Part shown: piece by piece, positions 54,432-59,119 of the stretch
How the letters are laid out: every line of letters begins with the position of its first letter
Position numbering within the stretch: position 1 is the first letter of the stretch
Assembly: GCF_005298075.1 (NCBI RefSeq)
Contig: NZ_SZZH01000001.1
Coordinates: 2,170,001-2,234,000 of the forward strand
Reading direction: 5' to 3'
Length of the DNA: 64,000 bases
DNA from: Nakamurella flava
GTDB lineage: Bacteria; Actinomycetota; Actinomycetes; Mycobacteriales; Nakamurellaceae
Notes under the pieces: generated by a model
What the model saw: only the letters and a program-made list of their open reading frames with translations
Databases searched by the model: none
What the model was told of the DNA's origin: nothing
Translations under genes and position numbers: made by a program

Positions 54432-54671
54432 ATGACCACGCAGAACGCGACCACGGTGACCTACACGGTGACCGGGATGACATGCGGACACTGCGAGAAC
54501 GCGGTCCGCGAGGAGGTCGGCGCCATTCCCGGCGTCGTCGGCGTGGACGTCAGTGCGACCACCGGGCAGCTGGTGATCAGCGTCGGAGACGGCGTGACCG
54601 TCAGCGATCAGGCCGTCCTGGACGCGGTCGACGAAGCCGGATACACCGCCACCCCAGGGCAGCCGGCATGA
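54432..54671 (+). CDS. copZ: Copper chaperone CopZ
   Basis: 79 residues, a single heavy-metal-associated domain. The metal site is G-M-T-C-G-H-C near residues 15-21, with the C-terminal VDEAGYTA. Delivers Cu(I) to CopA. GGAGGG about seven bases before the ATG. Overlaps copA by four bases (ATGA). Controlled by the CsoR-type sites upstream. Confidence 0.92.
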
Positions 54672-56956
54672 CCACGCCTACCCCGCTGTCCCCCGCACTG
54701 GCCGACCAGCTCGCCCAGCCGTCCGCCACCATCATCGAGCTGTCGCTCACCGGCATGACCTGCGCCTCCTGCGCGGCCCGGATCGAGAAGAAGCTCAACC
54801 GCATGGACGGCATCACCGCGACCGTCAACTACGCCACCGAGACCGCGCACGTGGTCGGCCCGGCCGGCCAGCACGCACCGGACCTGGCCGCCGCGGCCAT
54901 CGCCACGGTCGAACGCACCGGCTACGGCGCCACCCTGGTGCCGGACGAGCCGCCGACCACGTCGAACGACGCGGACCCTGAGCTCGACAGCCTCCGCCGG
55001 CGACTGATCCTCGCCGTCGTCCTGGCCGTCCCCACCATCGCCCTGGCCATGGTCCCGGCCCTGCAGTTCGACTACTGGGGGTGGGTGTCGCTGGCCCTGA
55101 CCCTGCCCGTCGTGCTGTGGTCCGGATGGCCGTTCCACCGGGCCGCGCTGGTCAACCTGCGGCACGGCACGGCCACGATGGACACGTTGATCTCGTTGGG
55201 CACGCTCGCCGCCCTGGGCTGGTCGGTCTACGCCCTGGTCGTCGGCACGGCCGGGATGCCCGGCATGCGGCACGGTTTCGACTGGACCACGGAGAACACC
55301 GCCGGCGGGGCCCCTTCCACAATCTACCTCGAGGTGGCCGCCGGGGTCACGGCTTTCGTCCTCGCCGGGCGCTTCTTCGAGAAGCGGTCCAAGCGGCGGG
55401 CCGGTGCGGCGCTGCGCGCGCTGCTCGACCTCGGCGCCCGGGACGTCGCCGTCCGCAAGGACGGTCACGAGATCCGGCTGCCCATCGGCGCACTGCGGGT
55501 CGGCGACGAATTCGTCGTCCGTCCCGGCGAGAAGATCGCCACCGACGGCGTCGTCGTCTCCGGCACCTCCGCGGTCGACTCGTCGATGATCACCGGCGAG
55601 TCCATCCCCGTCGAGGTCGGACCGGGTACCGCCGTGGTCGGAGCGACCGTGAACTCCGGTGGCCGGCTCGTCGTGCGGGCGACCGGGGTCGGGGCCGACA
55701 CCCAACTGGCCCGGATGGCCCGTCTGGTGCAGGACGCCCAGTCCGGCAAGGCCGAGATCCAGCGACTGGCCGACCGCATTTCCGCCGTGTTCGTCCCGGT
55801 CGTGCTGGCCATCGCCGCATCGACCCTGGCCGGCTGGCTGCTGACCGGACACTCCGCCACCGCGGCGTTCACCGCCGCCGTGGCCGTGTTGATCATCGCC
55901 TGCCCCTGCGCGCTGGGCCTGGCCACCCCGACGGCGCTGCTGGTCGGCACCGGCCGCGGCGCACAGCTCGGCCTGCTCATCAAGGGGCCCGAGGTGCTGG
56001 AGTCGACCCGCCGGGTCGACACCGTGCTGCTGGACAAGACCGGCACCGTGACCAGCGGCGACTTGGCCGTCACGGACGTCGTCCCGGCCGCCGGAGTCGA
56101 CGCCGACGACCTGCTGCGCCGGGCCGGCGCGGTCGAATCCGGCTCCGAGCACCCCATCGGCCGGGCCATCGCCCGGGCCGCCGATCAGCGGACCGGCGAG
56201 CACCCTGCGGTGACGGGATTCGCCGCCCTGGCCGGGCTCGGCGTCCGCGGAACGGTGGACGGAGACCAGCTGGTCGTCGGCCGGCCCGCCCTGCTCGCCG
56301 ACCTCGGCCTACCGATGCCCACCGGGCTGAGCGGCCCACTGGCCGACATCCAGCAGCAGGGGCGTTCGGTCGTGGCCGTCGGCTGGGCCGGTCGGGTCCA
56401 GGGGCTGATCGCGGTGGCCGACACGGTCAAACCCACCAGCGCCCGAGCCGTCGCCCGTTTGCAGGCGCTCGGCCTGCGGACCGTGCTGCTGACCGGTGAC
56501 CAGCGCCCGGTGGCCGAACAGGTGGCCGCCGCCGTCGGCATCGACGACGTCATCGCCGAGGTCCTCCCGGAGGGCAAGGTGGCCGCGGTCGTCGAGCTCC
56601 AGGCCCAGGGTCGGGTGGTCGCGATGATCGGGGACGGCGTCAACGACGCCCCGGCCCTGGCCCGGGCCGACCTCGGCGTGGCCATGGGGACGGGCACTGA
56701 CGCCGCCATCGAGGCCGCCGACATCACCGTGGTCGGCGGCGATCCCGCCGGTGCCGCCGACGCCATCCGGCTCGCCCGGCGTACCCTCGGCACCATCCGG
56801 ACGAACCTGTTCTGGGCGTTCGCCTACAACATCGCCGCGATCCCGCTCGCCGCCGCCGGGCTGCTCAACCCGATGCTCGCCGGCGCCGCAATGGCGCTGT
56901 CCAGCGTGTTCGTCGTCGGCAACAGCCTGCGACTGCGGCGGTTCACCGCCGCCTGA
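54668..56956 (+). CDS. copA: Copper-exporting P-type ATPase CopA
   Basis: 762 residues, P1B-1 ATPase. N-terminal HMA domain (C32-A-S-C35), eight helices, transport motif C412-P-C414 ([13 protein letters not shown]), actuator T-G-E-S, phosphorylation D456-K-T-G-T, the S-E-H-P-I-G motif in the nucleotide domain, and hinge G-D656-G-V-N-D-A-P. Helix with N-P-M near the C-terminus. Exports Cu(I) at the cost of ATP. A 12-bp-stem hairpin follows it before csoR. Confidence 0.95.
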
Positions 56957-56959
56957 TCG

Positions 56960-56995
56960 GCCGGTCGCGGGTCCACCCGTCGTCCCGCGACCGGC
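56960..56995. terminator. Hairpin between copA and csoR
   Basis: A perfect 12-bp stem (56960-56971 with 56984-56995) and 12-nt loop right after the copA stop. It may reduce read-through into csoR. A short palindrome GGCAC-TAAG-GTGCC (56993-57006) follows and could be part of a csoR promoter. Confidence 0.75.
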
Positions 56996-57048
56996 ACTAA
57001 GGTGCCAATCGTCCCGGCCCCGGACCGGCCGACGCCGAAGGAGATCCG

Positions 57049-57378
57049 ATGTCCGAGACCACCGCCGACCCCGACTGCCACGACGGACACGCACCCGGCC
57101 ACGGGTACATCCAGGACAAGGACAAGTACCTGGCCCGCCTCAAGCGGATCGAGGGCCAGGCCCGCGGCATCCACCGCATGGTCGATGAGAATCAGTACTG
57201 CATCGACATCCTCACGCAGATCTCGGCCCTGACCAGCGCCCTGCAGAACGTCGCCATCGGCCTGCTGGACGACCACCTGCGGCACTGCGTCGTCGACGCC
57301 GCCAAGTCCGGCGGACCCGCCGCCGACGCGAAAATGGCCGAGGCCTCCGCCGCCATCGCCCGCCTGGTCAAGTCCTGA
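57049..57378 (+). CDS. csoR: CsoR copper-sensing repressor
   Basis: 109 residues, DUF156/CsoR helical fold. The Cu(I) ligands are C51, H76 and C80, the same relative spacing as C36/H61/C65 of M. tuberculosis CsoR. LKRIEGQARGIHRMV is the conserved helix 1. Releases DNA on Cu(I) binding, derepressing copZ-copA. A His-rich N-terminus (HDGHAPGHGY) may add metal contacts. Starts 92 bp after copA. Confidence 0.92.
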   Translation: MSETTADPDCHDGHAPGHGYIQDKDKYLARLKRIEGQARGIHRMVDENQYCIDILTQISALTSALQNVAIGLLDDHLRHCVVDAAKSGGPAADAKMAEASAAIARLVKS

Positions 57379-57443
57379 ACGCACGGCTCCGCCGCCCGAC
57401 CGCCGACGACTAGACTCTCCCGGGGTTCGGTCCGCCGACCCCC

Positions 57444-57516
57444 GCCCTCATAGCTCAGGGGATAGAGCATCGGTTTCCTAAACCGTGTGTCGCAGGTTCG
57501 AATCCTGCTGGGGGCA
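57444..57516 (+). tRNA. tRNA-Arg (anticodon CCT)
   Basis: 73 nt: acceptor GCCCTCA/TGGGGGC (one T-G pair), D-loop with CAGGGGATA, anticodon loop TTCCTAA with CCT at 57477-57479, T-arm CAGG-TTCGAAT-CCTG. Discriminator A, no CCA encoded. TAGACT at 57411-57416 may be its -10. Its 3' half serves as the integration site of the element that follows (inference). Confidence 0.93.
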
Positions 57517-57828
57517 CAGAAGTTCGGGTAGACGCCGTCGCAGAGCGTCAGGATCGAACGCGCCGGGAACTGCCGTGACTGGGATACCCCAGTCTTCCGG
57601 GTCTTCTCTGAGGGCAGCGAGCAGGAGCCACGCTCGAAAGAGGTCCCGTTCGTCGAGCTCGGCCGGATCGGTGATCCGGTAGAGCTTAGAGAAGGTGTTT
57701 CGCACTCCGATCTGCGAGCCCACCTCAGTACGGATGACATCGACAATTCGCCTCAGTCCACCTTCGGTTCCAAAGGTCTGCGCCAAGAGAGCACTTCCCC
57801 AGGGAACCGGTCGAGTAACGACGGCCAT
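57478..57828 (-). CDS. Uncharacterised element-borne protein whose 3' end lies inside the tRNA
   Basis: 116 residues from ATG 57,828 (AGGAG nine bases upstream). Helical, charged: RRIVDVIRTEVGSQIGVRNTFSKLYRITDPAELDERDLFRAWLLLAALREDPEDWG. The last 12 residues (CPQQDSNLRHTV) and the TAG stop are read from the opposite strand of tRNA-Arg, the stop overlapping the anticodon. No family is recognised. It follows the next gene by one base and shares its promoter. Position between attachment site and repressor suggests lysogeny-expressed cargo (inference). Confidence 0.65.
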   Translation of the reverse strand: MAVVTRPVPWGSALLAQTFGTEGGLRRIVDVIRTEVGSQIGVRNTFSKLYRITDPAELDERDLFRAWLLLAALREDPEDWGIPVTAVPGAFDPDALRRRLPELLCPQQDSNLRHTV

Positions 57829-57829
57829 T

Positions 57830-58159
57830 TCAGTTCTCCTCGTTCTTCGGGCTGGCGAGTAGGTATCGGTAGTCCGGCCGTTTGACTTCTTCGAGTAGGT
57901 CATCCAGGTCGAGCAAGAACACCCAGCGGGTGGTTCGGAGCTGTTCAACTGCGTCCTCAGGATCCGGAGGATCGACGGCCCGCTCCCCCATGACTAGGGC
58001 TCTAGCCTCGGCGGTCACGACGTCTAAGGCCATCAAGCACGCCCCGCACATCGGCACCGAGCGATCCTCGATCGGGGTCGGGGTGCCCTCGGCCATCGAA
58101 CGCTGGTCGCAGAGCGAACGACGGTCCGTGAGCCAGAGATGGTGACGCTTTTGCGACAT
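57830..58159 (-). CDS. Uncharacterised Cys/His-containing element-borne protein
   Basis: 109 residues from ATG 58,159. H-H-L-W-L near the start, a lone C in RRSLCDQR, then P-M-C-G-A-C, a possible zinc site (H/C...CxxC), followed by an acidic helix-rich half (EDAVEQLRTTRWVFLLDLDDLLEEVKR). No Shine-Dalgarno; TAGCAT lies seven bases before the ATG with TTGACG 17 bp further up, so leaderless and strongly promoted. First of the leftward pair. Family not recognised. Confidence 0.65.
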   Translation of the reverse strand: MSQKRHHLWLTDRRSLCDQRSMAEGTPTPIEDRSVPMCGACLMALDVVTAEARALVMGERAVDPPDPEDAVEQLRTTRWVFLLDLDDLLEEVKRPDYRYLLASPKNEEN

Positions 58160-58218
58160 GGCAAAGATGCTATGTCGGTCGTATTGACACGTCAATCACT
58201 CGATGGCATGGTTGCCAT
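58160..58218. promoter_or_regulatory. Divergent promoters with overlapping palindromes (lysogeny-switch-like)
   Basis: Leftward: TTGACG (58195-58190), 17 bp, TAGCAT (58172-58167), 7 nt to the ATG. Rightward: TTGACA (58184-58189), 17 bp, CATGGT (58207-58212), 6 nt to the XRE ATG. The two -35 boxes overlap inside TTGAC-AC-GTCAA (58184-58195). A second palindrome, ATGGCA-TGGT-TGCCAT (58203-58218), covers the rightward -10 and ends at the XRE start codon. Both transcripts would be leaderless. Confidence 0.75.
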
Positions 58219-58488
58219 ATGGCAGAACTGACCCCGGGTCAGACAGTTCGTCGGGCCCGCGAGCAGCTCGGGCACACCCGCGACCACCTGGCCGTACTGG
58301 CTGACGTTTCCTCGAGCATGGTCGCCCGCTTGGAGCTGCGCGACCACATCCCGAATGTCCTTGCGCTGGGCCGGATCGTCCGTGTCCTGAACCTCGACAT
58401 CTCCGACGTCGTCGCCGCGGTCGCGGCCGACGAGGCCGAGCGTCCCGACCGGCGACGAGGTGCCCGTCGCACACCCATCTCGGCGTAG
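58219..58488 (+). CDS. Small XRE-family repressor-like regulator
   Basis: 89 residues. HTH_3 domain (about 5-65: PGQTVRRAREQLGHTRDHLAVLADVSSSMVARLELRDHIPNVLALGRIVRVLNL) and an Ala/Asp/Arg tail. There is no peptidase or oligomerisation domain, so no RecA-type cleavage is expected. Leaderless, with a palindrome directly over its -10, so autoregulation is likely. It is the natural candidate for the element's immunity or switch protein. A hairpin follows its stop. Confidence 0.8.
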   Translation: MAELTPGQTVRRAREQLGHTRDHLAVLADVSSSMVARLELRDHIPNVLALGRIVRVLNLDISDVVAAVAADEAERPDRRRGARRTPISA

Positions 58489-58504
58489 AGCCGACCCCCC
58501 TGCT

Positions 58505-58551
58505 CCCCGGCGGTCTCGCTCCCTTGTCGGGGGGCGGGCGAGCCGTCGGGG
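58505..58551 (+). terminator. Hairpin after the XRE gene
   Basis: Arms 58505-58519 and 58538-58551 pair with one bulge and one G-T (CCCCG...CTCGC with GCGAG...CGGGG) around an 18-nt loop. It separates the regulator from the following gene train. Confidence 0.5.
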
Positions 58552-58586
58552 CCTCCCACTTCCCCACTCACCCCGTTGGAGGGGTC

Positions 58587-58856
58587 ATGTCGCACACCCA
58601 GGGCTGCATGCGGCCGGCGCTCGGCGCCGCGGTTCAGCACGCGCAGCTGGCGCTCGGGACCGGGCTGTTCGCCTCGGTTCCGAAGCGGACCGGCACCGTA
58701 TTGGAGGACATCGAGCGCCTGGCCGAGAAGCTGCTGGCCGAGGGCAAGGTGTCCTGCCGTTGCGAGGTGGCGGTCGAGGTCTGGCAGCGAGATCAAGCGG
58801 CCGTCCGCCGGCTGTCGGCCGAGCGTCGCCGGCACCTGACGGCGGTGGCCCGATGA
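58587..58856 (+). CDS. Small helical element-borne protein, unknown
   Basis: 89 residues with GGAGGGG just before ATG 58,587. Mostly helical; a heptad-like stretch (VLEDIERLAEKLLAEGKVSCRCEVAVEVWQRDQAAVRRL) suggests a coiled coil or dimer; two cysteines (C-R-C). No family recognised. First of a rightward train in which nearly all genes overlap by four bases. Confidence 0.65.
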   Translation: MSHTQGCMRPALGAAVQHAQLALGTGLFASVPKRTGTVLEDIERLAEKLLAEGKVSCRCEVAVEVWQRDQAAVRRLSAERRRHLTAVAR

Positions 58857-59119
58857 CCCGCTCAGTGACGGTGCTGGCCGATCGCGGGCCGGTCTACCCG
58901 CGGTGGTCGATGCGCAAGCGGGTGGCCCTGATGACGGTCGCGTCGGCGTGGGCGATCTTCCTGGTCTATGCGGCGCTCGTGTGGGCGGTGCCGGCCGTGC
59001 TGTGGGCCGCGGTCGCGGTTCCACCGGCGATCCGCTGGTGGCTGCTGGGCATCGCTGTCGGTGTCGCCCTGGTCCTCTCTGTGCGCGCCGAGCGCCGGCA
59101 GCTCCGGGGTCGGCGATGA
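58853..59119 (+). CDS. Small two-helix membrane protein
   Basis: 88 residues. Two hydrophobic helices (about 25-43: VALMTVASAWAIFLVYAAL; about 58-78: AIRWWLLGIAVGVALVLSV), basic tail ERRQLRGRR. Overlaps the neighbours by four bases each side. Unknown role; small membrane proteins are frequent in phage early regions. Confidence 0.65.
   Translation: MTRSVTVLADRGPVYPRWSMRKRVALMTVASAWAIFLVYAALVWAVPAVLWAAVAVPPAIRWWLLGIAVGVALVLSVRAERRQLRGRR

Follow-up and report, generated by a model that had tools for sequence, protein, structure and literature searches.

A gene for an XRE-type helix-turn-helix (HTH) protein in Nakamurella flava lies back to back with two small leftward genes, here called A and B, at the left end of a 43.5-kb prophage (the element) integrated in a tRNA-Arg(CCT) gene. 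What does the short region between them control, and which of the three products holds the decision? The original prediction described a compact lysogeny-type switch in which the XRE protein would act as repressor, block its own synthesis and favor cargo genes on the left. Here, we describe an analysis of the 64,000-nucleotide stretch of DNA containing the locus (the window, whose positions are used unless stated otherwise), of the whole element and of related loci in other genomes. We consider it likely, from the arrangement of the DNA, that the divergent region is a lysis–lysogeny switch of the integration-dependent kind, with B stabilized on integration.

The divergent control region

The ATG codons of A and XRE are separated by 59 bp (58160–58218), just as predicted, and the genes, promoter elements and repeats of the region are as follows:

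57478–57828, minus strand: ORF-B in its prophage form, 116 aa, with its TAG stop at 57480–57478
57830–58159, minus strand: ORF-A, 109 aa, first of the leftward pair, from the sequence and relatives
58150–58165, no strand: O_L, operator-like repeat TTTGCGACATGGCAAA spanning the start of ORF-A, the top site of the element (11/12), with column conservation
58167–58172, minus strand: leftward −10 TAGCAT, from the promoter scan
58184–58189, plus strand: rightward −35 TTGACA, perfect
58184–58195, no strand: O_C, palindrome TTGAC-AC-GTCAA with both −35 boxes; TTGACATGTCAA in the related locus G412
58190–58195, minus strand: leftward −35 TTGACG, from the promoter scan
58203–58218, no strand: ATGGCA-TGGT-TGCCAT, the second palindrome of the original prediction, present in the window and absent from the stretches retrieved from the relatives
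58207–58212, plus strand: rightward −10 CATGGT, weak (3/6)
58211–58226, no strand: O_R, operator-like repeat GTTGCCATATGGCAGA with the XRE ATG at its center (10/12); similar sites in G412 and L040
58219–58488, plus strand: XRE-type HTH gene, 89 aa, from Pfam, heading the rightward run (the Cro position)

Two consensus-like promoters had been claimed. The leftward one stands: TTGACG-17-TAGCAT is the only promoter-like site that the scan detected in 57400–59000, where shuffled sequences gave a mean of 0.1. The rightward one is consensus-like in its −35 box and not in its −10. The palindrome shared by the −35 boxes is present, TTGACACGTCAA at 58184–58195 containing both the rightward TTGACA and the leftward TTGACG, and so is the second palindrome, ATGGCA-N4-TGCCAT, directly adjoining the XRE ATG at 58219. 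The distances from −10 box to ATG, 7 and 6 bp, and the lack of a Shine–Dalgarno-like motif in all four loci compared below are compatible with the suggestion that both genes are leaderless.

Of 5000 dinucleotide shuffles of the 81-bp stretch 58150–58230, 0.06% produced the TTGAC-N2-GTCAA palindrome, and the five overlapping inverted repeats with arms of at least 5 found in this stretch are also unusual (P = 0.002). The longest arm (6) is by itself not significant in the same shuffles (P = 0.11). Comparison with relatives speaks more strongly for the region.

The module, with B and A leftward and XRE rightward, is present in three other loci: G412, from a genome of the same order and another family, L040, an IMG/VR contig, and G468. 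Identity to the window proteins is 50%, 46% and 43% for B, 42%, 41% and 41% for XRE, and 38%, 30% and 30% for A (G412, L040 and G468, respectively), and the intergenic lengths are 59, 60 and 66 bp, against 59 bp in the window. Aligned without gaps, the intergenic regions of the window and G412 are identical at 33 of 59 positions (mean 16.5 and maximum 28 in 5000 shuffles), and the identities cluster in three blocks, with GACATGNCNAA at the leftward start, GTTGCCATATGNCA at the rightward start and TTGACANGTCAA between them. The leftward promoter keeps one geometry in all four loci, namely a −35-like hexamer (4 to 6 of 6 matches), 17 bp, TANNNT, 7 bp and ATG, which, without a Shine–Dalgarno-like motif, supports leaderless translation of A. 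Abutting −35 boxes occur in three of the four; G468 is the exception, lacking the overlap, and no good rightward promoter was found there. The 59-bp region is real and, judged by these comparisons, looks functional.

The repeat over the leftward start, O_L, was overlooked in the original prediction and is a third operator-like repeat. A half-site TGNCAAA with its complement fits all three conserved blocks; no site of the element scores higher than O_L (11/12) and O_R (10). O_C reaches 9, a cut-off at which the element has 12 partly overlapping matches (O_C included) and an equally long host stretch has none. As the consensus was drawn from the very sites it scored, this scoring is a description and not an independent test. 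Codon choice gives a line of evidence independent of the consensus. The second codon of XRE is GCA or TCA in all four loci, two rare choices in the element, whose called genes use GCA for 75 of 1729 alanines and TCA for 19 of 767 serines; this suggests selection on the DNA spanning the start codon. Over the stretches retrieved from the three relatives, ATGGCA-N4-TGCCAT is missing, and in G412 and L040 the ATG-centered repeat recurs instead. No further copies of the two palindromes turned up: the 64-kb window has a single TTGAC-N2-GTCAA and a single ATGGCA-N4-TGCCAT, and the counts are the same for the 43,458-bp element.

Searches for further members covered phage records, genomes and contigs. 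With tblastn, 50,697 phage records gave no match for XRE or B (E ≤ 1e-3), for A (E ≤ 1e-2) or for the B protein of L040 (E ≤ 1e-2); the XRE protein of G412 matched 11 records, of which six carry no annotation and five are labeled regulators or repressors. Among 61 relatives, XRE had matches in 22 genomes, mostly weak and taken as generic HTH proteins, and A and B were each found in 2 of the 61, own genome counted. A profile of B matched 3 of 397 genomes of the order and 1 of 394 of the class, own genome counted in both, as well as 2 of 24 from the family to which G412 belongs. Searched against 396 genomes of the phylum, B gave six matches at E ≤ 1e-3, one of them its own; the remaining five (2.5e-4 to 9.0e-4), four of which contain internal stops, were discarded as chance matches. 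Single window proteins as queries gave no confirmed match in viral contigs, where two profile searches returned the same single contig, and none in genome contigs, where one of these profiles found one locus, on a Jatrophihabitans metagenome-assembled genome (MAG) contig, which appears to be the G468 locus. A DNA pattern of the control region matched two viral contigs at the same AT-rich site; this was judged to be chance, and the nearby ORFs are, by eye, unlike XRE, A and B. A looser pattern run against 394 genomes of the class found its own genome only, with 0 for the backward control among the matches listed.

The prophage and its attachment site

The 3′ end of the tRNA-Arg(CCT) gene is repeated exactly over 40 bp at G000:C1:2227479 and G000:C1:2270897, and the two copies bound the 43,458-bp element. 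The features at its left end are as follows:

57444–57517, plus strand: tRNA-Arg(CCT), integration target, whose 3′ half is the att core (ARAGORN)
57479–57518, no strand: attL common core, 40 bp, with an identical copy at G000:C1:2270897–2270936, outside the window

Genes of the element match Pfam families for portal, Clp-like protease, capsid, phage tail and integrase, and four of the nine genes scanned, the likely terminase included, have no Pfam match. Our own script, with which the genes were called, overlooked XRE and B and picked up A only in part. The portal gene is followed by one (L003:14994–16226) that carries a Clp-protease-like domain (CLP_protease, 5.5e-26) and presumably encodes the capsid maturation protease. 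XRE heads a rightward run that continues into the portal, capsid and tail genes. The integrase is encoded at the opposite end of the element, on the minus strand (2269916–2270779; Phage_integrase, 1.1e-20), so that the minus strand of the circular phage reads A, B, attP and int, with the integrase 83 bp past viral B in the reconstructed attP.

The reading frame of B runs through the 40-bp core. In the prophage it ends ...CPQQDSNLRHTV (SNLRHTV), the last base of its TAG being the first bacterial base. In the reconstructed attP, it reads on as ...HTVYNSVRSLSVAA to 127 aa, instead of 116, and ends -SVAA. The same overlap of B and att is found in G412, with another tRNA, tRNA-Asn(GTT), and another core of 39 bp: the attL form ends ...SNQEHSD, its TAA completed by the first bacterial base, and is 22 residues shorter than the attP form, which reads ...SDYRFDPSTAPWARAAADAAVRAA and ends -VRAA. 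With the core lying in the B frame and A–B running towards the integrase in the circular phage, the pair stands where integration-dependent systems have their repressor gene and does not look like the cargo that had been supposed; on the same grounds of position and att overlap, we set aside A–B as cargo or as a toxin–antitoxin pair.

An ssrA-like -AA tail is thus present in both attP forms that are readable, those of the window and G412, and the argument from tails is confined to these two, since the L040 record lacks the other end and the integrase. The integrases of the window and G412 also end in -AA (PGAAA and VIAAA, respectively). By chance, random frames end -AA in 250 of 16,000 cases in the element (1.6%) and 319 of 16,000 in the host (2.0%), and random tails of 5–40 aa in 57 of 5381 (1.1%) and 52 of 4332 (1.2%), respectively; of the 58 called genes of the element, two end this way, the integrase and one unrelated gene. 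G468 departs from the arrangement: no att core was recognized in B, B and int are contiguous and end ...SVPA and ...GDVA, neither of them -AA, no tRNA was found in 15 kb, and the B–int junction has no strong second copy in that genome.

Several further observations concern the attachment sites and their surroundings. The att core occurs twice at the right end of the window element, at G000:C1:2270897–2270936 and 2270998–2271034, in register and 99 bp (33 codons) apart, and viral B would end -SVAA whichever copy is attR. In G412, of whose element about half was covered, TTGACGGGTCAA forms a further TTGAC-N2-GTCAA palindrome on the phage side of attR (L051:1887–1898); it adjoins the att core within the viral 3′ end of B and may be an extra candidate operator for the integrase. 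In other members of the genus, the same tRNA seems to be occupied by different elements (G408:C1:239488–279150 and G396:C1:764418–768477) of ∼39.6 and ∼4 kb, respectively, as estimated from the spacing of partial copies, with left-end frames that do not look B-like by eye; the flanks 3′ of this tRNA differ among genus members, and an empty attB was not fixed from them. The neighbors of the prophage at 54600–57378 read, by eye, like genes for a copper-type P-ATPase and a CsoR-type regulator.

Roles of A, B and the XRE protein

XRE is a clear HTH protein (HTH_31, 8.8e-7; HTH_3, 1.1e-6, with 29.0 bits against a cut-off of 23). For B, Pfam gave no match and PHROG no significant one (best 0.061, obtained with one of the four members, function unknown), and no similarity to XRE, or with its profile in hhalign to the repressor of mycobacteriophage Brujita, could be detected. 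Its AlphaFold model is helical and poor (pLDDT 60), and a structure search with it gave no convincing PDB match (best VIA Z 3.5; no Foldseek E below 2.9). Given these results, DNA binding by B is a prediction from gene position, and the statement that the locus works like integration-dependent immunity is better supported than the statement that B is the repressor. ORF-A, whose model has a pLDDT of 51, keeps a CGxC motif and an upstream Cys among relatives. GAGGAG (57836–57841) lies 7 bp upstream of the B ATG, and the TGA of A comes one base before that ATG (57826–57832), so that B, unlike leaderless A, is probably translated by coupling to A.

In the mechanism that we propose, P_L, leftward and leaderless with a good −10, would transcribe A–B and probably, when the phage is circular, the integrase as well, while P_R would transcribe XRE and then the lytic genes. 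Before integration, the longer B ending -SVAA would be degraded in the manner of ssrA-tagged proteins. On integration, the core becomes joined to the chromosome, where the first bacterial base completes a stop; B, having lost its last 11 residues, would become stable, and the integrase would be cut off from P_L. Stable B, perhaps together with A, could then keep P_R off through the operator-like repeats at both starts and the shared −35 boxes, and XRE would act in a Cro-like manner on the same sites. The anatomy being that of integration-dependent immunity, with B at the repressor position, XRE is probably Cro-like rather than the lysogeny repressor, which reverses the roles originally assigned. 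The wider claim of a compact lysogeny-type switch is borne out by the prophage, the divergent promoters, the conserved operator-like repeats and the integrase. The narrower one, of a repressor blocking itself in favor of cargo, does not fit XRE at the Cro position, nor O_L over the leftward start, a matching repeat that makes the layout near-symmetric.

The reading in which XRE is the lysogeny repressor, shutting its own promoter while A and B run as cargo and B overlaps the tRNA for reasons of tight space only, draws on the fact that XRE is the only recognizable DNA-binding protein of the module, with an operator-like repeat over its start and ATGGCA-N4-TGCCAT over its −10. As XRE comes first in the run into the structural genes, however, a lysogen should need it off, O_L covers the leftward start as well, and this reading leaves unexplained that both readable attP forms and both integrases end in -AA and that the window integrase resembles that of Brujita; we regard it as improbable. 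The overlap of B and att might instead be incidental, a phage ORF running into a tRNA site with two lucky tails in alanine-rich DNA. A chance of 1–2% per tail, the unrelated element gene with the same ending and the lack of the arrangement in G468 leave some room for this, yet two different tRNAs are involved, both with a stop completed by the first bacterial base, both integrases end in -AA, and one is 45% identical to the integrase of a known system. We hold coincidence, too, to be improbable.

A closer alternative shares the integration switch with our preferred explanation and differs in the role of B, which would be a partner, as co-repressor or through antirepressor control, of XRE or A, to which DNA binding would fall. 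That no DNA-binding family or fold was found for B speaks for it, as do the clear HTH of XRE, whose first codons belong to O_R, and the CGxC motif kept in A. A family or fold missing from four sequences is, however, weak evidence, and in the described systems, as far as the excerpted accounts go, the repressor is encoded by the very gene that contains att (PMC4557955, PMC9934374); on balance, we think B as partner possible but unlikely. A bolder form, which we put forward as a doubtful speculation, has B as an HTH-free partner switched by its stability which, together with A, sets XRE as lytic regulator or lysogenic repressor on three operators in 59 bp, placed at start codons and −35 boxes. 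If true, it would found a separate class of integration-controlled regulator.

Comparison with known switches

The cI–cro region of phage lambda has divergent promoters and operators common to the repressor and the Cro-like protein, and the window resembles it in both respects. Lambda is governed by CII and by RecA-dependent cleavage, whereas control in the window would be exerted by integration; unlike in lambda, no second distant operator region for these repeats was found in the element.

Closer parallels come from integration-dependent systems. Their layout, in the sections of the literature consulted, has attP inside the repressor gene, a prophage product that is shorter and stable, a viral product that is longer and ends in an ssrA-like tag, int downstream, which may carry its own signal, and a divergent cro-like gene (PMC4557955, PMC9934374, PMC8092301). 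In Brujita (NC_011291, genes 33–35), as in the window, repressor and int run leftward and a regulator diverges rightward; the window integrase is 45% identical to that of Brujita over 267 aa, and that of G412 28% over 250 aa. The annotated Brujita repressor ends NEHAA and its integrase LSAA, in keeping with viral B and the integrase of the window, and the tail of the repressor, from an antisense tRNA T-arm-like stretch, reads ESNP, where B reads DSN. Brujita differs in having one repressor gene in place of A and B, and 154 bp of intergenic DNA in place of 59 bp.

The BPs switch (genes 32–34) likewise has attP in the repressor gene, a short prophage form, a tagged viral form and divergent P_rep and P_R with palindromic operators (PMC4557955), and in the same account a stabilized viral repressor raises the frequency of lysogeny. 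Its operator CGACATATGTCG matches O_R at 8 of 12 positions in the window and 9 of 12 in both G412 and L040, with the start codon inside the match. The BPs repressor is described as binding five genome regions (PMC4557955), whereas the window palindromes each occur once in the element.

Among Mycobacterium abscessus prophages, the attL stop of MabC, MabK, MabN and MabO is formed by the first bacterial base, as in the window, and some repressors and integrases end in -AA, a likeness by description; in MabB and MabK, also as in the window, transcription of the tRNA runs in the direction of the truncated repressor (PMC8092301, PMC9934374). MabC, MabN and MabO have this kind of stop without an -AA tag, unlike the window, so, on the account given there, the bacterial-base stop and the tag need not co-occur (PMC8092301).

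Such systems are also known in Bifidobacterium prophages and Gordonia phages (PMC6109161, PMC5559632); none is described in the titles and abstract openings listed for papers on Nakamurella and prophages. The present locus would bring integration-dependent immunity, as described in parts of the literature on phages of Mycobacterium, Gordonia and Bifidobacterium, to additional actinobacterial hosts, and would add a regulator for which no relatives are recognized beyond four loci. With 59 bp, three small proteins and one att site, it would offer a minimal system for testing how integration is coupled to repressor stability, and it suggests that switches of this kind can be recognized in genomes from an open frame read across a reconstructed attP, whatever the family of the repressor.
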